Part shown: positions 5,793-52,615 of the stretch, one piece after another | How the letters are laid out: each line of letters opens with the position of its first letter | Position numbering within the stretch: the stretch's first letter is position 1 | From: a virus | Strand: one strand, 5' to 3' | IMG/VR virus record: IMGVR_UViG_3300046167_000114 | Coordinates: 1 to 53,829 of that record | DNA length: 53,829 nt | Translations under genes and position numbers: made by a program | Notes under the pieces: generated by a model | The model's database searches: none | What the model saw: the letters and a program-made list of their open reading frames with translations, nothing else | What the model was told of the DNA's origin: nothing

Positions 5793-5901
5793 CCCTCACG
5801 ATGATGCATCACATTGGGCGGGCAACATGCCCCCCAGTAAAAAAGGAGACAAGGATAATGAGAAAAGTAAAGATCCCAAAGGCGACAGAAAAGGTAAGTA
5901 A
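5767..5901 (+). CDS. Possible small charged peptide (GTG start)
   Basis: 44 aa, beginning VQSEKDCDNPHDDASHWAGN and ending in a Lys/Asp-rich tail. GAGGAG lies just before the GTG at 5767. It overlaps both the membrane peptide and the integrase start, so it may not be real. Confidence 0.3.
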   Translation: MQSEKDCDNPHDDASHWAGNMPPSKKGDKDNEKSKDPKGDRKGK

Positions 5902-6766
5902 ACTTATTGACTACTACCTGCACAGCCCTGCCTTTGCTAAGCTCAGCCCTCGCAGCCAGAAAGATTATGAGTATCACTTGGCTAGAGTTAATAAATCTAT
6001 TGGCAGTAAGGCTATCGAAGATGTTACAGCCGGTATGCTAAACAAATCCTATGAGAAGTGGGAACAAGATCACGGCATACGCACAGCTAATTACACAAAG
6101 TCTGTACTGTCTAGGGCATGGAAGTACAGCATGTCCAAGGATGTCATGCGACATAACCCTGTGAGTCTCATAGAGACTAGCACAGAACGTAAAACAAAGA
6201 CCAAGTGGGATCGGGCATCTGTAAAGACCTTCCTCACTACAGCGTACAGCCAGTGGCGTTGGCGCAGCATTGGGTTGATTGTTCACATGGCATATGATTG
6301 GGGTCAACGTACTGGTGACATGCGTACCCTGACATGGGATGCATTAGATCTGGATCAATGCCGCATGGATCTAACACAATCTAAGCGGGGCGCAGATGTG
6401 CACCTGCCTATCAGTCAGAACCTCTGCAAGATGTTACGTGAGCAACACAAAGATTTTGGCTTTCAAGATTACGTTGCACCAAAGGTATCACTGGATCGTG
6501 GGCAGGTTAGACGCTACGGCTTGAATGAAATAGCGCCTCTTATCAATGAGGTACTGGACGAAGCTAATCTACCTAGAGAGCTTACAGCTATGTCGCTGCG
6601 CCGTACTGCCGTTACTGAAATGATGGAAGCAGGGGTTGACCTAGTGGGTATCATGCAAGTAACAGGGCATGTGAACCCTGCATCATTGAAGCCTTACATG
6701 GTCAATACATTCAGTGGTGCAAGCAGAGCTTTAGCAGCAAGAGGTAACGATGATGAAGATTCGTAA
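5858..6766 (+). CDS. int: Tyrosine recombinase / phage integrase
   Basis: 302 aa, usual length for the family. An N-terminal SAM-like core-binding domain (about 15-95) precedes the catalytic domain. Catalytic residues visible are Arg151 (WGQRTGDMRTL), Lys176, Arg248 (LRRTAV), His271 (TGHVNPASL) and the nucleophile Tyr280. The first His of the usual HxxR box is replaced by Met245. GGAGACAAGGATA precedes the ATG at 5858; an in-frame start at 5801 lacks this. It could integrate the phage genome or resolve multimers. I identified no attP site or lysogeny repressor. Confidence 0.85.
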   Translation: MRKVKIPKATEKVSKLIDYYLHSPAFAKLSPRSQKDYEYHLARVNKSIGSKAIEDVTAGMLNKSYEKWEQDHGIRTANYTKSVLSRAWKYSMSKDVMRHNPVSLIETSTERKTKTKWDRASVKTFLTTAYSQWRWRSIGLIVHMAYDWGQRTGDMRTLTWDALDLDQCRMDLTQSKRGADVHLPISQNLCKMLREQHKDFGFQDYVAPKVSLDRGQVRRYGLNEIAPLINEVLDEANLPRELTAMSLRRTAVTEMMEAGVDLVGIMQVTGHVNPASLKPYMVNTFSGASRALAARGNDDEDS

Positions 6767-9786: not shown

Positions 9787-11014
9787 ATGATTGAATTAGC
9801 ATTACTAAAAACTCTACTTAATAAAGAGTTTTACGATCAACACAAAGGCATACGCTGCCCTGATAAGATCTTTACGAAAGACACACGTAAGATCAAACAG
9901 GCGTTAGATACGGCAATGCAGACGTATGAAGAAGATATGTCTGTGTCAGATCTTGAGGCTGTGTTCATGGGGCTTAATCAGACCATGACAACCGCTACGA
10001 AATCTGCATTCCAGGATTTGTTTCAGCGTTTAGAAAAGGCTGAACCTATTAAGAAAGACATTGCAGAAGATACCTTGAGTCACCTGTTTCAACAGTACGT
10101 TGGAGAGCAGGTTGCCAATCTAGGTTTCGACTTTGTTAATGGTAGCCAGAGTAGTCTAGAGCCATTACGCCGCTTACTAGAGGATTACAAAGATGATTTT
10201 ACTCCTAATCTCCGTATTGACTGGGATGATATTGACATTGACACATTGCTTGCTGCGAATAACCTTGAAACGCAGTGGAAGTTTAACATACCAAGTCTCC
10301 GTAGGAAGGTGGAAGGCGTTAGCAGTGGTCATCTTCTTGTGGTTGGCGCTAGGCCTAATACTGGCAAAACTTCTTTCCATGCCTCTCTGGTAGCAGGTAC
10401 GGATGGCTGGGCGTCACAGGGTGCTAAGTGCATTGTACTGTGTAACGAAGAAAGCTACGAGCGTGTAGGTGCACGTTACCTAAGTGCTGCAACCAACATG
10501 AGTATGGATGAAGTTAAAGAGAATGTATCTCTAGCACGTAAGCGCTACGATCCAGTAAAACAAAACATCCGTATCAAAGATAGCACAAACAAAGATATGA
10601 AATGGGTTGAGGCGGTAGTAAAGAATGAAAAGCCTGACATTGTTGTGTTGGATATGGGGGACAAGTTTGCAACCAAGAATAGCGATAAGTCAGACATATA
10701 CCTCAAGGATGCAGCCATCCATGCACGTAACATTGCAAAGCAGTATAACTGCTTGTGTGATCTGGATGTCTCAGCTATCTGCTGTTGCAGAAGGAAAGGT
10801 CTACGTTGATCAGTCCATGATGGAAGGGTCTAAGACAGGTAAGGCAGCGGAAGCAGATCTTATGGTTTTAATCTCTAAAGATCCTATCGTAGAAGGGCAG
10901 TCAGAAGAGTCAACACGGCGGCACCTGAACATTGCTAAGAACAAACTAAAGGGTGGGTGGCATGGTGTTGTCCATTGTGAATTAGATGGTGAGCGTTCAC
11001 TCTACACCGCTTAG
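9787..11014 (+). CDS. DnaB-like replicative helicase, one +1 insertion
   Basis: Walker A GARPNTGKTS is at residues 187-196 and Walker B DIVVLDMGDKF lies about 90 residues on. After the frame breaks, the motif WMSQLSAVAEGK and SKTGKAAEADLM appear in another frame. Removing one T from TT at 10753-10754 joins them (CVIWMSQLS) into 408 aa. The N-terminal 170 residues are helical and lack a primase, which is encoded at 6750. It unwinds DNA at the phage fork. GGAGACAAGG precedes the ATG. Confidence 0.8.
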
Positions 11015-11022
11015 GAGAATAG

Positions 11023-13087
11023 ATGAGACTTGTATTAGATGTAGAGAACAGCATCACATGGCGTGATGGTAAGACGTTCATTGACCCCGTACGAGGTAGG
11101 CAACCACCTTGTTCAGGTAGGCATGGTAAATGCTGATAACAAAGAAGAGATTATGCTTGTTACCTTAGATCACAATGAGCATAAGGATTCAGATGGTCAA
11201 GGTAGAGCCTTGATACAGAAGTTACTTGATAAGACTACACTGCTTATCATGCACAATGCCAAGCATGATCTTATGTGGCTATGGGCCAGTGGCTTTACGT
11301 ATGATGGTGACATCTATGATACCCTGCTGGCAGAGTACATATTGTGCAGAGGGCAGAAGCCCAAAGAAGGTATCAGCCTATCAGCCTGTGCTATTAGAAG
11401 AGGCTTAGCAGAGCAGAAGGAAGACTACCTTACTGCCTGTATAAAGAAAGGAATAAACACCCATGAGACGGATCTCGACTCTCTTAGCATTTATCTTCGG
11501 GCTGACATCCTCACAACTTGTGAGTTGTTCCACAGCATCGAAGCAGACTACGCAACCCCAGAATCCAGATCCCTTCATGCAGTCAGAACCGTCACCTTTC
11601 AAACATGCAGAACCCTCACCGAAATGTACATGTCAGGACTAAAGGTAGACCTTGATGTATTGGAGCAGGTTAAGGAAGAGTTTGAGCTTGAACAGGCGCA
11701 GATAGAAGAGCGTCTACAGAGCCAAGTGCGGGATCTTATGGGTGATACACCTATCAACTTAAACTCACCTGAACAGCTATCTCAGGTTATCTTCTCACGT
11801 AAGCCTAACGATAAGAAAGAGTGGGCAGACATATTTGAGTTTGTAAAAGATAAGGCTGAGTTTAAAGGCTGCAGTCAATGCTAACTCTAAGATGCTGTTT
11901 AAGACAACAGCTTTTCACGTGCCCTACATGTAATGGGGCTGGACATACATACAAGACAAAGAAAGACGGTACACGTTACGCTAGGACCAAACAAGTGCAC
12001 TACCTGTGACTCAAGAGGCTATGGCTTGAAAGAGTCAAAGCAAATGGCCGGGCTTGGGCTTTAGTGCACCAAACAAGAAGTGGATCGCTCATAGTGGCTT
12101 TGGCACAGGAAAGGATAACTTAGATGCACTGGTGGCAACAGCTAGGAACAATAACATGGAAGCTGCGGCAAGCTTTATTCTGGATGTTAAGCGCCTTAAT
12201 GCTATCACTAGCTACCTTTCTAGCTTTGTTAACGGCATATCTGTGCATACTAAGTCTAACGGATACCTTCACGCAACTCTTAGCCAGCACATAACAGCTA
12301 CAGGTAGGTTTAGCAGTAAAAACCCTAACATGCAGAACATGCCTCGCGGTGGTACATTCCCTGTTAAGAAAGTCTTTGTGTCACGTTGGGAAGGCGGGAA
12401 AATTTTAGAGGCCGACTTTGCCCAGCTTGAATTTAGAGCGGCTGCGTTCTTAGCTCAAGATGAGGTTGCTATGAGAGAAGGTTGAGACAGGCTTTGACGT
12501 ACATGCTTACACTGCAAAGGTTATCTCTGATGCAGGTCAACCTACCGCTAGACAGGCAGCAAAGGAGCACACTTTTGCCCCGCTATTCGGCGCTACTGGA
12601 TATGGGCCGTAGCAACGCTGAGAAGGCTTACTATGAGCACTTCAATGATAAGTACAAGAGGTATAGCACAGTGGCAACAAAACTTAGCTGACGAAGCAAT
12701 GCGCTTCAATAAGATTACCAATATCAGTGGTAGACAGTATGCTTTCCCTGACATTGAGCGCAGAGCTAATGGTAGTGTCACACACTTTACTATGATAAAG
12801 AATTATCCTGTACAGGGCTTTCGCTACGGGTGATGTTACCCCTGCTGTACTTAATGAGTTTCACAAAAGATTGAAGCCACTAAAAGTCTGTGCTGATCAA
12901 TACAGTACATGACTCAGCGGTGGCTGACATACACCCTGACGAAGAAAAAGAGGTATTACAAATAGTTGCAGATCTTAATGACAATCTTGTAGATCTGATA
13001 GAAGATGTATACAGAGTACGTATGAATGTACCATTATTATTAGAGGCAAAAATAGGCCCAAACTGGCTTGACACAAAAGACGTATAA
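11023..13087 (+). CDS. polA: Family A DNA polymerase with DnaJ-type zinc-finger insert, ten +1 insertions
   Basis: Replicates phage DNA. The corrected protein is 684 aa. The 3'-5' exonuclease (about 1-200) shows LDVEN, HNAKHDLMWLW and YLRADILTT. Near residues 298-330 lie CPTCNGAG and CTTCDSRGYG, a DnaJ-type zinc site as described for phage HMO-2011. Polymerase motifs follow: A (EADFAQLEFR, about 462), B (RQAAKEHTFAPLFGATGYG, about 507-525, Phe at the E. coli 762 position) and C (VHDS, about 625). There is no 5'-3' exonuclease. As given, it is broken by single-base insertions near 11085, 11867, 11917, 11990, 12055, 12480, 12611, 12662, 12820 and 12888. Removing the ten gives 2055 nt, exactly 685 codons. 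Confidence 0.85.
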
Positions 13088-47288: not shown

Positions 47289-47469
47289 TGACTGTCTCCC
47301 TGAGTAGCTTTAATCGTCTAAGCACACTAATTGCACCCTGTGCTCTGTGTACTTCTACAGGTGTATCTGCACTTTCAATGATTCTATGCTGTATAGTGAC
47401 TAGATCATCTATGTGTGCATAAAATTCTTCGATAGCTTGCTTGTTATTTACAAACTGTTTAAGCGACAT
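47272..47469 (-). CDS. Small helical hypothetical protein
   Basis: 65 aa, MSLKQFVNNKQAIEEFYAHI, helical with heptads. It overlaps the portal end by 11 bp and the next gene's start by 17 bp, so it is translated from within the structural operon. The family is familiar as a small gene near portals, but its function is unknown. Confidence 0.5.
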   Translation of the reverse strand: MSLKQFVNNKQAIEEFYAHIDDLVTIQHRIIESADTPVEVHRAQGAISVLRRLKLLRETVNGFSK

Positions 47470-49588
47470 TACCAGTAAACCCTTGTTCATCTGGTGTAGG
47501 GGCTGTTCCTATACCCATCTGTGAACCACCGCCACCAGACGTATCAGCTACGCCCTGTGGGCCTTGTCCTTGAGGTGGAGCACCCTCTGGTGCTGCAACA
47601 CCTTCTGGCCCTGCAGGGGGCTGTGCTGGCTGCTGAAAGCCCTTCAAGATCTCAGCTTGAATAGCCGCATCCTGCATGGAGTTAGTAACCTTGTCTGGGT
47701 CAAGATCCATAGACTTAGCAATCTCACGAATTATGTAGTCCATCTTAGCAAAAGGTGCCAGTACTGGATTCTGTGCAACCTGTAAGAATTGCATCAAACG
47801 CTGTGACCGTACTTCGTTAGCCATCAAGCTTTCTGTACCAGACGCACGTACCTCTAGATCACCCTTTATTGTCTCATCAAAGTCAAACTGCATGTTGAAT
47901 GCAAAGAATGCCTTACCTAGAGGGCGAATCAAGTAGTCATCCACGTTCTTTACTACAGTACGGATAGAGCCGTTGGCAGCAGACATAAGCATACTAATAC
48001 CAGAAGCAGTACGACCCACTCCAGATACGCCTGTCTGACCGTGAGCAAAAGAAGGGAAACCAGTGCTTTCATCTGCTAAAACTCTAGCCTTATCAAATAG
48101 TTGCATGTTTTCTTGTGCTACATTAGGAAACTTGGTGCCAAAGATGCTCTGCCCCATTGCACCCCCCTGACGCCTAAACACTTTTCCAGGGTACACAGAT
48201 AAATCTTGGCCCGGAACCATGTTTGTTTCGTCAACTTCAATGATCAAGTTTCCACTCAAGTGCAGCGTTATCAATAGCCATACGCATAAAGCCATTCATA
48301 AGCGTTTGAGTATCATCCATATTCTCTGCAATACCTACACCAAAGAAGCTGTAGGGGTTATGCTCATATGGGGTAGCATAGTAAGGTATACGTGATGGCT
48401 TGAACGGGTTTAGTACCATACGCAGTACTTCACCATTACAGATCCACACGTTAGCACTTACTTCATCTAAGTCTTTCATAGAAGTAGGTATCTTAATACC
48501 GTGCTCTTCTAAATAGCAGTGTCTACAAAGCCCCAAAACTCTAACACTTCCCAACGCTCAGACTCAGCATGAACCTGATTGTCTTCCATAGTCATTTCCC
48601 AGTGCTTCTGCACATAGTCTGGGCCTTTAGCTACTGCCATATCAATAGCATCATCCATAAAGTATGGGCGTGTCTTGAGGGAGCGTAGCTGTGTACGTGA
48701 CATCTTGTGACGCTCAATAGTGTACTCAGCATCATCCATAGACGTAGCTTCTGGGTCAGGGTAGAAATTCCAGACACTTACGTGGTTGCACTCAGGTACA
48801 GTCTTTATAAGAGGATCATACTCACCTTGATCATTCCAGTTAGGGTACTCTTTATCTACAGCAAATGGGCCTTTCATAACACCCATACCAAGTAGAGCCA
48901 TCTCAAATGCCATAGAGCGTAAATGCAAAGAAGCGCCAGACTCATTTAGCTGGTCATGTATCTTCTTTTCCATTCGTTTAGCTGCAACCATAGCAGGGTG
49001 AAATGTAACAGTGGTAGGCGTTGTGCCATCACCTTCGACAACCTTTTCTGATACGGATGCTAACTTGTCGCTAAGTGGCCCTAAACGTTGCTTTAGATCT
49101 GCTAACGTCTCTCCGGGTTTTAGCTTCTCATTACCGTCAAGTAAGTAGGGCCGTGAAGGCTTGTCTTGTGTTACACTTTTGAGTGCTTCACCAGCGGCTG
49201 CGGCATTAGGGTCAATGTTGATGTGTACTGATTCAGCAACGCCATCTGGTAAAATAGATGGATCTACTGACATAGGAAACTTATTGTTACCAAACAGTAC
49301 GTCAACAATCTGCCCATATGCAGCTAAGGTCTTAGTCTTCGTGACTTTAACGAATACACGAGACTTTTCTGTGTCTGTAAACTTTACATCAGGCCCGTAC
49401 AAACCACGATAGTTGCGGTAAGCACGTAACCATCTATCTTCGTCACTTCTTCGAGCATCTTCTGCTCTGCTAAAGCGTTCATCAACAAAGGATACAATAC
49501 TAGATTTAGCTTCAAAGATGCTATCCTCTGCGTCCTCTGCAGCTACAACTTCATCTGTATCAAAGGTTACTTCGTCAATATCTGCCAT
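47459..49588 (-). CDS. Portal protein, two indels
   Basis: Three frames join into 709 aa. Adding one base between 48515 and 48516 gives VDTAYLEEHGIKIP, and removing one base at 48257 gives DNAALSGNLIIEVDE. The order RNYRGLYGPDV, SVWNFYPDPEATSMDDAEY, YSFFGVGIAENMDDTQTLMN and TASGISMLMSAANGSIRTVV is that of the podovirus portal. The Pro/Gly-rich C-terminus is probably disordered. It forms the packaging vertex. The two indels cancel, so the length stays a multiple of three. Confidence 0.8.
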
Positions 49589-49591
49589 GTT

Positions 49592-51471
49592 TTAGTATCC
49601 AAATGTTGTGTCTTGTGCTTGAAAGCCCTGATTTGGTTTGTCAGGCGTGAAATCCCATATACTTCTACTACGGGGTCTTGTCATAACGCCATAGCGTAGG
49701 GCATCATATAGGTGGTCTTCTGCTTTAGTGTCTACATCCTCTGGGTTCTTTTTATCTAGAGGAATAATAGGTATTTGCGATAGGTGTTAGTACAGTTACT
49801 CATAAAAGCAAGTCTTGGTTTCTCAGTAAACTCATCTACCTGCAGACGCCTATGTATTTCGTTCTTACCAGCTACACGAGAGCCTCTAGATCTATCAGAA
49901 GGACGCCAACGGCAACCCTTCATGTTCATCTGTTCAGCCAGTGATGGCCCAGTATCACCACGGTTATGCCATAAACTAGAATCCAGAACACCATATCGCA
50001 TACCACCATCATTAGCTTCCGCTTCCAGTATCATATCAGCTAAATCAGAAGCTGTAACTTTAGAACAATAAAGCTCCCTGTAGACGATAAGCTGTTCGTC
50101 GGGAGCGACAGTAAACCATAAAACTCCTGTATAACTACCGTAGCCGTAGTCGCAAGCTCTAAACTTAACCCAGTTGTCTGGGATTTCAAAAGGGTCAATG
50201 ACATGAATGGATCTATTAAACTCTGGGAAAGCTGCTCCTTCATTGACATCCCAATTACCCTCTAACAGTTGTTTTCTTTGATGCTCTGGTAAAGACAAAA
50301 GCATAGCTTCGTAGTCACCAGTATCGGCTAGGTATGGGTTGTCAAACAGACTAGCAGGTATAAACCTACGCTTAAACAGAGGTTGACCCTCTTTGCTGTG
50401 ACCTTTAGGGAATGTAATAGTATCCCCTGTTTCTATGTTAGTTGCCCAGAAAGGTTTATTAGATGGTGCAGGGTCAATAAACATCTTTTTAACCCAAGAG
50501 TGCCCGCTGCCACCTGGGTTTGTAGTAGCACGAATGTACAATCCTAAGTCTGTACTATGGGCAGACCTCAAGCGACTTCGCATATAATCAAACGCATAAG
50601 GGGTAGGCCACTGAGTTAGCTCGTCGAATCCGATCCAGTTAAACGCTTGACCTTGGTAACGAGTAACGTCCATATCTTTATCAAGATACGACATCCAGAG
50701 CCTACCGCCTTTCGGAGTAGTCCACTGACTTTTACGCTCAGACCACTTAATGCCCGGAACAGCTTTAGGATAAAGCTCTTGGCTTTTTTGATAAGCTCAC
50801 GTAATTCCTCCGTAGTATGTCGTACAAGTAACCCACTAAAGTTTGGATCATTTAAACCATGTAAAGGGTCAGCAAGCATTGCGTAACTCTTACCACCACC
50901 TGCTGCACCGCCGTATAGTACCTCACGTTCAGATGCGCTTAGAAAGTCTGTCTGAGGGCCGGGATTAGGCTTGAACACTACGTCCTGTGCCGCCTCAACG
51001 TCAAACTCTGCAGGTGCTACTTGTGCAGGTACAGTCTCTTTCGGGGCGATAACTATATTATCACTCTTCTGAGTACGCTCCGATACAGCCTTTTTCGAGC
51101 CTCTCGATTTCGGATAACGCCGTTTCGAGCCGCTTGGCAAGGTTCCGTTTAATTGTAGCAGCTTTTTTACGTCTTCGCTCAATATCTATTCTCTGTCTAA
51201 GACCTGCATGTGATATGCTACGTCCAGTTTGTTTTGTGAGCCAATTAGCTACATCTCTGTAACTATACTGTTGAAGATGCCGCTTTGCAAGCTCTAAGGC
51301 TTCTAACTCAAGCGGTATAGGCTGTAACAAATTTTCATTGTCAGGGTGTATTGAATAACCAAAAGGCGGCTTCTTAGTTAGCTTGGCTATAACGTGCCAC
51401 TCTCTCTCTTTACCGCGTTTTGGTTTAGGTAGCTCCCAATACTCTAAGTCTCTGCTTATGTGCTTTCGGTC
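49592..51471 (-). CDS. terL: Terminase large subunit with N-terminal HTH extension, several indels
   Basis: Reconstructed at 1881 nt (about 626 aa) by removing one A at 51091-51095 and adding one base near 50779 and near 49782. Motifs in order: N-terminal extension (RDLEYWELPKPKRG; SYRDVANWLTKQTGRSISHA, a helix-turn-helix), Walker A GGAAGGGKS, Walker B IGFDEL, coupling motif TTNPGG, and nuclease Asp residues at ACDYGYGS, GVLDSS and EDHLYDALRYG. No normal start codon precedes the frame. With two more missing bases near 51477 and 51466, an ATGA overlapping the terS stop would begin MSKTEKHISRD. This start is inference. Confidence 0.75.
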
Positions 51472-51474
51472 TTA

Positions 51475-51843
51475 CTATTCGTTATTACCTTCTTTTGGTG
51501 GTAGATAAAAGACGCCACCTGTTGAGGTAACATCAACTTTATCTACTTTACCAAGTCCAGCCCGATCAAGCAAGTCTTTAGCGGCACTCATCTTATCTTT
51601 TATCCCAAGCTCTGTAGGGTCAGACAAAGCCTGTACCATAGCCATTGCAGCTTTAGGCGCTGTACGGGCGAAATAAGATCTTGTAGCTTCTCCAATTTCA
51701 TCTTTAAGTGCCTCCACTATAATGCGAGTCGGTGTGCCGTTACTATAACCTGCCAACTTCTTGGCAAGCACAACATCACCACCAGCATCATCGAAGAGTA
51801 CTTCTAGAAACTTTTGTTGGTTTTCTGTGAGGTTTCTTGCCAT
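51475..51843 (-). CDS. terS: Terminase small subunit
   Basis: 122 aa. A helix-turn-helix-like N-terminus (LTENQQKFLEVLFDDAGGDV; AKKLAGYSNGTPTRIIVEAL) and a helical middle fit a DNA-recognition TerS. It is placed directly before terL. It would mark phage DNA for packaging. AAGGACAACTTCAT precedes the ATG. Confidence 0.7.
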   Translation of the reverse strand: MARNLTENQQKFLEVLFDDAGGDVVLAKKLAGYSNGTPTRIIVEALKDEIGEATRSYFARTAPKAAMAMVQALSDPTELGIKDKMSAAKDLLDRAGLGKVDKVDVTSTGGVFYLPPKEGNNE

Positions 51844-51872
51844 ATGAAGTTGTCCTTTATAGATAGGCTTGC

Positions 51873-51900
51873 CTTATAGTTTTATGAAGTTTTACTACAA
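51873..51900 (-). promoter_or_regulatory. Sigma-70-like promoter before terS
   Basis: On the - strand, TTGTAG (51895-51900) and TATAAG (51873-51878) are 16 bp apart, 30 bp before the terS start. It follows a terminator-like hairpin, so the packaging operon may have its own promoter. Confidence 0.45.
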
Positions 51901-51991
51901 AAGCAAGCTTTATTTTTATTTAAGCCTCTGTTAAGACCAGAACCTGTCTGCCTATCTGTATCACCAGATGATACGTGAGTAAAAACTGTAA

Positions 51992-52024
51992 GGCTAAGAA
52001 TAACAGGAATGCTGTTTCTTAACC
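51992..52024 (-). terminator. Terminator-like hairpin after DUF1127 gene
   Basis: An imperfect stem (AACAG with CTGTT, then TAAGA with TCTTA across a 2-nt bulge) and a 5-nt loop start directly after the DUF1127 stop. On the - strand, a T5 run follows about 7 bases later. It could end the right-hand small-gene transcript. GC content is low, so strength is uncertain. Confidence 0.45.
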
Positions 52025-52174
52025 TCACTTATACTCACCGTATACACGGTTGTATATCTCACCACGAGAAATACCTATATCGTGTAGCTCTTTATTAGAC
52101 ATATTCTTTAAAACCCAGTAGTCTGCTCTACGCTGCTGGTGATTTTGAATACGTGTCAGTAAATTCTTAAACAT
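52025..52174 (-). CDS. DUF1127 (YjiS-like) protein
   Basis: 49 aa. The pattern NHQQRRADYWVLKNMSNKEL followed by HDIGISRGEI is the DUF1127 motif (L-x-x-MS-x-x-EL-x-DIG-x-SR-x-EI). Such proteins are common in alphaproteobacteria, where some bind RNA or tune metabolism. A phage copy is uncommon and supports an alphaproteobacterial host. AAGGAGATAGTGC precedes the ATG, and the ribosome site lies in a hairpin (52178-52208). Confidence 0.75.
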   Translation of the reverse strand: MFKNLLTRIQNHQQRRADYWVLKNMSNKELHDIGISRGEIYNRVYGEYK

Positions 52175-52177
52175 TGC

Positions 52178-52208
52178 ACTATCTCCTTATGTTACGTGCG
52201 GAGATAGT
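52178..52208 (-). promoter_or_regulatory. Hairpin enclosing the DUF1127 ribosome site
   Basis: ACTATCTCC (52178-52186) and GGAGATAGT (52200-52208) are perfect 9-bp inverted repeats around a 13-nt loop. On the - strand RNA, the stem includes the GGAGAT ribosome site of the DUF1127 gene, so it could block translation until opened. Confidence 0.5.
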
Positions 52209-52255
52209 TATACTTATATCTTAGCGCTATAGTAGATACATAATGTGCATACCCG

Positions 52256-52615
52256 TTACCCTACAGGCACAAAGGTTTCTGTAACTGTTAATATCGTATC
52301 TATATGCCCAGAACCTGTAGGGGTAACTCTTATTTGATCATTAGGTTGTAGTACTAAATCTATCTGATTGAAGCTTATGTAATCACCCCCACCTAGAGAT
52401 TTAGCACTTAAAAATTTAGAAACATAGTTAGCTGCTGATACATACCAACCTACTTCTACTGTATTAGTAGAACCACCACCATTAACTACATGAATAAAAG
52501 TAATCTCAGCAGTACAGTTTGCAGGACATGTATAGACATTCTCTGTAGTCGTACCTGTATTATGCCCATAAACAGACTTAATACGTGCTGGCTTACCTTG
52601 ATTCACAAAAGACAT
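52256..52615 (-). CDS. Beta-rich virion protein
   Basis: 119 aa, starts MSFVNQGKPARIKSVYGHNT, with alternating strands (AEITFIHVVNGGGSTNTVEV; NDQIRVTPTGSGHIDTILTV). It resembles a small head-decoration or fibre domain. Function not established. Confidence 0.5.
   Translation of the reverse strand: MSFVNQGKPARIKSVYGHNTGTTTENVYTCPANCTAEITFIHVVNGGGSTNTVEVGWYVSAANYVSKFLSAKSLGGGDYISFNQIDLVLQPNDQIRVTPTGSGHIDTILTVTETFVPVG

Follow-up and report, generated by a model that had tools for sequence, protein, structure and literature searches.

Why should a roseophage keep the ribosome-binding site of a small host-type gene inside a hairpin, and what would decide when that site is open? The locus that raises this question lies on the minus strand of an IMG/VR virus record, 53,829 bases long, which was analysed at its full length and is called the window here. 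A preliminary description of this DNA had proposed a DUF1127 gene, a perfect 9-bp stem covering its ribosome site, and a translational switch. It overlooked a -10-like box at the stem foot. This box points to the position of the transcription start as what throws the switch.

The DUF1127 gene and its surroundings

The gene occupies 52025 to 52174 on the minus strand (stop codon included), begins with ATG and encodes a small protein of 49 amino acids. With 35.2 bits, the product passes the Pfam gathering cut-off of 23.3 bits for PF06568 (DUF1127), and the gene was therefore correctly recognized in the preliminary description. The protein shares PF06568 and its short length with the SDPs of A. 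tumefaciens, YjiS of E. coli and Salmonella, and CcaF1 of R. sphaeroides, but differs in being phage-encoded and in its arginine content of 10% (5 of 49 residues), compared with the 14% quoted for the DUF1127 family (PMC12501420). In A. tumefaciens and E. coli, DUF1127 proteins are reported to interact with PhoR, and phosphate uptake to rise when they are lost; for CcaF1 of R. sphaeroides, binding to RNA is reported (PMC12501420). The account of Salmonella YjiS drawn on here gives no sign of RNA binding (PMC11707872). An activity on PhoR or one on RNA could serve the phage; in view of these two activities, the preliminary description may be right that the protein rewires host RNA or metabolism.

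Upstream of the gene, five small minus-strand ORFs abut or overlap one another from 53729 to 52256, the last of them encoding 119 amino acids (52256 to 52615, minus strand). The first gap after these ORFs, of 81 nt, is followed by the DUF1127 gene, and a simple terminator scan found no terminator-like site on the minus strand of this gap. The 119-aa ORF and its four neighbors are presumed to be the source of read-through RNA. At the end of the DUF1127 gene, an inverted repeat with a T run (51988 to 52028, minus strand) was seen in the fold of 51840 to 52030, a 191-nt stretch with a z of -4.7 for the stretch as a whole. This repeat is absent from the list given by the simple terminator scan; it is a possible terminator in the lineage of the window. 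In some other lineages, coding-like sequence continues directly past the DUF1127 stop.

The nearest annotated relatives of the window are Roseobacter phages CRP-1, -2, -3, -9, -13, -207, -212, -235, -345, -603 and -738, and HMO-2011 is also among its capsid matches. The window has its capsid and gene order in common with these HMO-2011-type phages. The DUF1127 gene is single-copy in all 11 isolates and stands before the terminase small subunit gene, adjoining it or several genes off, in 10 of the 11 isolate stretches; the CRP-235 stretch read ended short of the terminase small subunit gene. HMO-2011 itself, unlike the 11 isolates, has no DUF1127 gene: at E 1, none was found in six further capsid-matched relatives (HMO-2011, two pelagiphages, two rhizobial phages and one spring-water record).

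Some other features of the window were noted. A tyrosine integrase is encoded at 5801-6766 (PF00589, 63.3 bits). The regions for portal, terminase large subunit, helicase and DNA polymerase are each broken into two or three ORFs (47459-49588, 49756-51182, 9787-11014 and 11063-12485), and in isolates such as CRP-207 the terminase and the portal are each one gene; the splits look like frameshifts in the window record. TGTGATCACA occurs three times, at 231, 263 and 294 (spacing 32 and 31 bp; 231-303), and a stretch rich in ATATCC/TATCCTTT repeats follows at about 310-610, ahead of the first plus-strand gene. The region from 231 to about 610 is likely a control or origin region.

The stem over the ribosome-binding site

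The Shine-Dalgarno (SD) sequence of the gene is AAGGAG (52183 to 52188, minus strand, as are all elements of the leader given below). Its core, GGAG, forms the first part of the 3' arm GGAGATAGT (52178 to 52186), which pairs perfectly over 9 bp with the 5' arm, the anti-SD ACTATCTCC (52200 to 52208), so that the stem is as it had been described. The 3' arm is supported by the fold and by covariation. Between the arms lies a loop of 13 nt (52187 to 52199) that begins with GCAC in the fold and varies in length among relatives. All but the last base of the 5' arm are predicted to be absent from transcripts of a local promoter.

The 37-nt hairpin was calculated to have -12.6 kcal/mol and a z of -4.6, equaled by none of 200 shuffles. 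A 106-nt stretch around the hairpin folds no better than chance (z 0.12, with 100 of 200 shuffles as good), and the window contains inverted repeats of 9 nt or longer, with arms at most 40 nt apart, in 41 pairs (overlapping palindromes included); a 9-bp stem alone is therefore weak evidence. What goes beyond chance is the position of the stem on the SD and its conservation with compensatory changes. None of 200 shuffled leaders closed the SD core as strongly as the leader of the window. No Rfam family was found at gathering score in the window.

Relatives were collected by IMG/VR scans, in which the best 80 of 223, 395, 541 and 194 relatives were kept, two of these totals being lower bounds, and the set leans to close relatives. 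It is made up of environmental contigs, 11 isolated roseophages and the window. Among 262 loci, 14 were dropped because the core motif of DUF1127, by which the ORF was located, is missing (L093-L102, L198, L199, L211 and the window's own locus, L001), and six more because less than 90 nt lay upstream. With the window added, 243 leaders were available, 129 of them unique over 75 nt; they form 27 clusters at an identity of 80%. The counts leave out the 13 dropped relatives, which were checked afterwards. Many leaders share descent, so that the independent changes are fewer than the counts.

By a simple helix count, 8 of the 129 leaders are without an unbroken helix over GGAG. Covariation was followed in an alignment of 20 alignable leaders, hand-picked to span the stem variants. 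In this alignment, 178 of 180 pairing cells are kept and four of the nine stem pairs vary on both sides, in 34 cells, although the variation is mostly one split between two stem types with few other changes, so that cell counts overstate the events. When the stem was slid along the alignment, none of six versions was more than 59.4% paired. Two further measures were unhelpful, since 123 of 500 shuffles reached four pairs with both-side changes and all 500 reached six further pair types. Stems that differ in sequence and yet remain paired include ACTATCTCC/GGAGATAGT, ACTACCTCC/GGAGGTAGT, ACTACTCCT/AGGAGTGGT and GTCTCTGTAAG/TTTATGGAGAC, and other variants, among them the 16-bp stem of CRP-212 and the 14-bp stem of CRP-235, stay paired as well. 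Across these relatives, the stem is conserved as pairing. The preliminary description had suggested a search for compensatory changes in relatives; the outcome is favorable, and the translational switch that it proposed is therefore likely.

The -10-like box and the predicted opening of the SD

In the window, the -10-like box TATAAC lies at 52207 to 52212 and overlaps the foot of the 5' arm. The predicted transcription start (+1), taken as 7 nt past the hexamer nearest the SD, falls at 52200. TACTAT (52229 to 52234) stands 16 nt ahead of the box. The box is 6 bp only and has no TTGACA -35 element with it. TA[TA]AA[CT] was found near or inside the stem in all 27 clusters, against 8.0 expected from shuffles, and TATAA[CT] in 25 of 27, against 5.4 expected. 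Relative to this +1, the anti-SD arm has its center at -4 to +1 in 117 of 129 leaders, and so it does in 21 of 27 clusters; when the best-fitting of several boxes was used, the count was again 21 clusters, with 118 leaders. CRP-235 and CRP-738 are laid out differently, with the box in the loop and the arm upstream of it, and the arm is again left out of the predicted RNA. Counting these two clusters, 23 of 27 have a box and a geometry that would suit a promoter whose RNA lacks the 5' arm. The misfits are L206 (just outside the limit), L240 and L241, where the arm is downstream, and L216, where it is not half paired. All four encode MELVIS-type proteins, a type with five clusters in total, and their start codons may be mis-set.

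Does the box act as a promoter, or is it just part of a hairpin? The stem could simply sequester the SD and lower or gate translation on all transcripts, in response to a trans factor, ribosome availability or temperature, with the box being no promoter. Stem conservation by itself would agree with this, and in some leaders the start region can find a pairing partner in the box itself. Only in 6 of 26 clusters are the first five bases of the box mostly unpaired (any partner counted), so that pairing, and not promoter function alone, could constrain it. However, a hairpin of this kind gives no reason for a box in every cluster, mostly at a near-fixed distance to the arm, or for the CRP-235 and CRP-738 boxes that preserve the same logic from inside the loop, and inspection by eye showed no motif shared by the loops of the leader classes. 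We regard this reading as unlikely.

If the box is a promoter element, it would suit the host polymerase. More than 60% of the predicted -10 elements at mapped starts in four alphaproteobacteria are reported to lack the final T (PMC8407463); TATAAC is thus acceptable as a host -10. TA[CG]TA[CT] was found 15-18 nt before the box in 99 of 129 leaders; 11 of the 27 cluster representatives have it, where shuffles give an expectation of 0.23. Like TTGCA[AT] below, this pattern was noticed in these leaders first and counted afterwards. A genome-wide phage promoter was considered and rejected: TA[CG]TA[CT]-N15-18-box occurs once in the window, at the DUF1127 gene (0.85 expected under a Markov model), which for one genome does not exceed chance, and TATAACTATCTCC with at most one mismatch was found at five places in 3 of 11 isolates. 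Some leaders carry two boxes. In 56 of 129 leaders (7 of 27 clusters), TTGCA[AT]-N17-TATAAC (P1) stands upstream, its box being 14-15 bp before the second box (P2) in 55 of the 56, and 8 of the 27 cluster representatives match a slightly wider P1 pattern, for which 0.04 would be expected. The predicted P1 RNA keeps the 5' arm, with a median probability of 0.001 that the SD is unpaired (below 0.1 in 46 of 56), whereas for the predicted P2 RNA, which starts after the arm, the median is 0.748 (above 0.5 in 48 of 56).

The accessibility of the SD was calculated as the probability that the GGAG core is unpaired in RNA from -100 to +30, with one representative per cluster and with the box defined as the last TA[TA]AA[CT] before the core. 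This definition replaced an earlier run, in which the -10 search was less strict, the SD window took in unpaired A's on its flanks, and the boxes were misplaced in several leaders; that run gave a weaker result (below 0.2 in 12 of 27 full leaders, above 0.5 in 16 of 27 truncated ones). For full leaders, the median over the 27 representatives is 0.002, with 18 below 0.1 and 25 below 0.3. The corresponding value for shuffled leaders, the median of the mean core accessibility, is 0.418, and only 15 of 27 representatives rank at 0.05 or lower among their own shuffles. For comparison, 30 other ORFs that have a GGAG SD and were chosen by a mechanical call (13 from the window and 17 from isolate loci) gave a median of 0.578, with two below 0.1 and five below 0.3, and differ from the DUF1127 leaders with a Mann-Whitney p of 4e-9. 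On longer RNA, the SD would thus be held in the stem, as modeled by these folds.

For RNA from the predicted +1, the median rises to 0.738, with 22 of 27 representatives above 0.5, although loss of any upstream sequence tends to open an SD. Among all 129 leaders, 109 are below 0.1 when full and 113 above 0.5 after the predicted start, and 122 gain more than 0.3. The 13 left-out relatives fit as well (0.000-0.009 when full, 0.787-0.973 from the predicted start). Five representatives stay at or below 0.5 after truncation, namely L107, L240, L261, L003 (CRP-207) and L005 (CRP-13); the SD core of CRP-212 reaches 0.928. After truncation, the start codon often stays occluded or becomes less accessible (e.g., L088, L116, L107, L117, L213 and L241). 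In the window, the one structure predicted for RNA from 52200 is a weak GCAC/GUGC stem: without the 5' arm, GCAC (52196-52199) can pair with GTGC (52176-52179), and the SD is then in the loop of the shortened leader. The GCAC/GTGC word pair recurs in many simple-loop leaders, and a small inner hairpin is seen in other leader classes.

The shape of the loops and stems also bears on who might read them. That the DUF1127 protein, a member of an arginine-rich family with one RNA-binding member, binds its own leader hairpin and regulates itself is quite improbable: the RNA binding reported for CcaF1 (PMC12501420) would suit it, but the loops range from 9 to 63 nt (9 to 38 nt in 115 of 121 leaders) with no common motif by eye, and YjiS is described without RNA association (PMC11707872). 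An action at the DNA level, with the inverted repeat bound as an operator by a dimeric protein that regulates the overlapping promoter, is very improbable. Such a dyad would likewise keep its arms complementary, and the inverted repeat does overlap the box; however, the spacing of the arms is variable and the SD stem includes a G-U pair in 58 of 127 leaders, for which RNA pairing is better suited, and the SD is carried by the 3' arm in the leaders analysed. Leader-ORF attenuation as in S. meliloti duf1127_1, where C-rich codons pair with the ribosome-binding site of a leader ORF and attenuation acts on transcription (PMC12218461), has hardly any chance of applying here: that DUF1127 gene is also leader-controlled through a hairpin that pairs a ribosome-binding site, and short start-to-stop stretches are readable in the phage leader, but the roseophage stem pairs the gene's own SD instead of that of a leader ORF, and, judged by eye, no clear SD precedes the short stretches and the conserved parts are the arms and the box.

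Probable start-site-dependent translation and its precedents

We consider it likely that the leader is a start-site-dependent translational lock, opened by a local promoter. RNA entering from the upstream genes would contain both arms, so that the stem would fold, the SD would be hidden and little DUF1127 protein would be made. The promoter with its -10 box at the stem foot would give RNA starting at or just past the end of the 5' arm, and this short RNA, unable to form the stem, would leave the SD open and be translated. The DUF1127 gene probably depends on its own promoter alone, and its protein would then be made only when the local promoter fires, regardless of the activity of the surrounding operon. 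The gene would be shut off if an early local promoter were followed by late read-through, and turned on if the local promoter were late. The benefit to the phage is probably the setting of the dose or time of a host-type regulator.

This type of control is known from T4 e and I-TevI, and would be new on a DUF1127 gene and in the roseophage group. In T4, the e, soc, 49 and I-TevI genes have an SD hairpin, and a late promoter in the 5' strand is documented for e and I-TevI, whose long early RNAs are translated poorly and whose late RNAs, starting from the 5' strand, are translated (PMC3014915, PMC2988022). The roseophage leaders resemble these two in having the SD in a stem on long RNAs and a 5'-arm promoter that would yield short RNAs without the arm. 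They differ in that T4 uses the TATAAATA late promoter with a phage sigma factor, whereas the roseophage boxes are host-like (TATAAC/TAAAAC/TATAAT). The roseophages are also an unrelated phage group, the gene is a DUF1127 gene, and some leaders have two boxes 14-15 bp apart. Since the window has TATAAC in place of TATAAATA, and neither an RNA polymerase nor a sigma factor was found among the ORFs scanned (a subset of the window's ORFs, several ORFs being broken in the record), the locus was classified as working like the T4 case and not as a T4 late gene.

The same switch was looked for in other phages. In Sinorhizobium phages phiM12, phiM19 and phiN3, a stem covers the SD, but it is no better than shuffles (fraction 0.16-0.23). 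In these phages, the DUF1127-like gene adjoins an annotated homing endonuclease gene (an HNH DNase in phiN3). Folding of the Phosso and Melnitz-3 leaders, done without shuffles, gave nothing convincing. In CRP-5, CRP-6 and P12053L, the DUF1127-like gene, called from tblastn matches of E 4-9 as the sole evidence, overlaps the preceding gene and leaves no leader gap. The overlapped gene is MazG, and ribonucleotide reductase is next in CRP-5 and P12053L. One genome-contig scan yielded no roseobacter host DUF1127 among its three matches. In the literature, the words "DUF1127" and "hairpin" are absent from the main texts, supplements aside, of three papers on RCA and HMO-2011-type phages (PMC9038755, PMC6918029 and PMC8528129), and among the papers listed by a search of the open literature, with subscription papers outside its scope, none has, by its title, a phage DUF1127 gene as its topic.

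What would such a lock mean for this family of phages? A bolder and rather doubtful possibility is that roseophages, which are unrelated to T4, arrived independently at start-site-controlled translation, and that in one branch the two promoters 14-15 bp apart give OFF (P1) and ON (P2) forms of the mRNA, so that promoter choice alone would set the making of a host-type DUF1127 regulator, possibly one acting on PhoR or RNA. In the start-site-dependent lock, a short anti-SD just before the transcription start would provide a compact and recurrent switch in a widespread ocean phage group. Whether the T4 e/I-TevI logic applies generally to phages relying on the host polymerase thereby becomes testable, and the lock provides a rule that can be scanned for elsewhere, namely an anti-SD between the -10 element and +1. 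Overall, DUF1127, as a single-copy gene in the roseophage isolates, is a candidate handle on host phosphate control or RNA.
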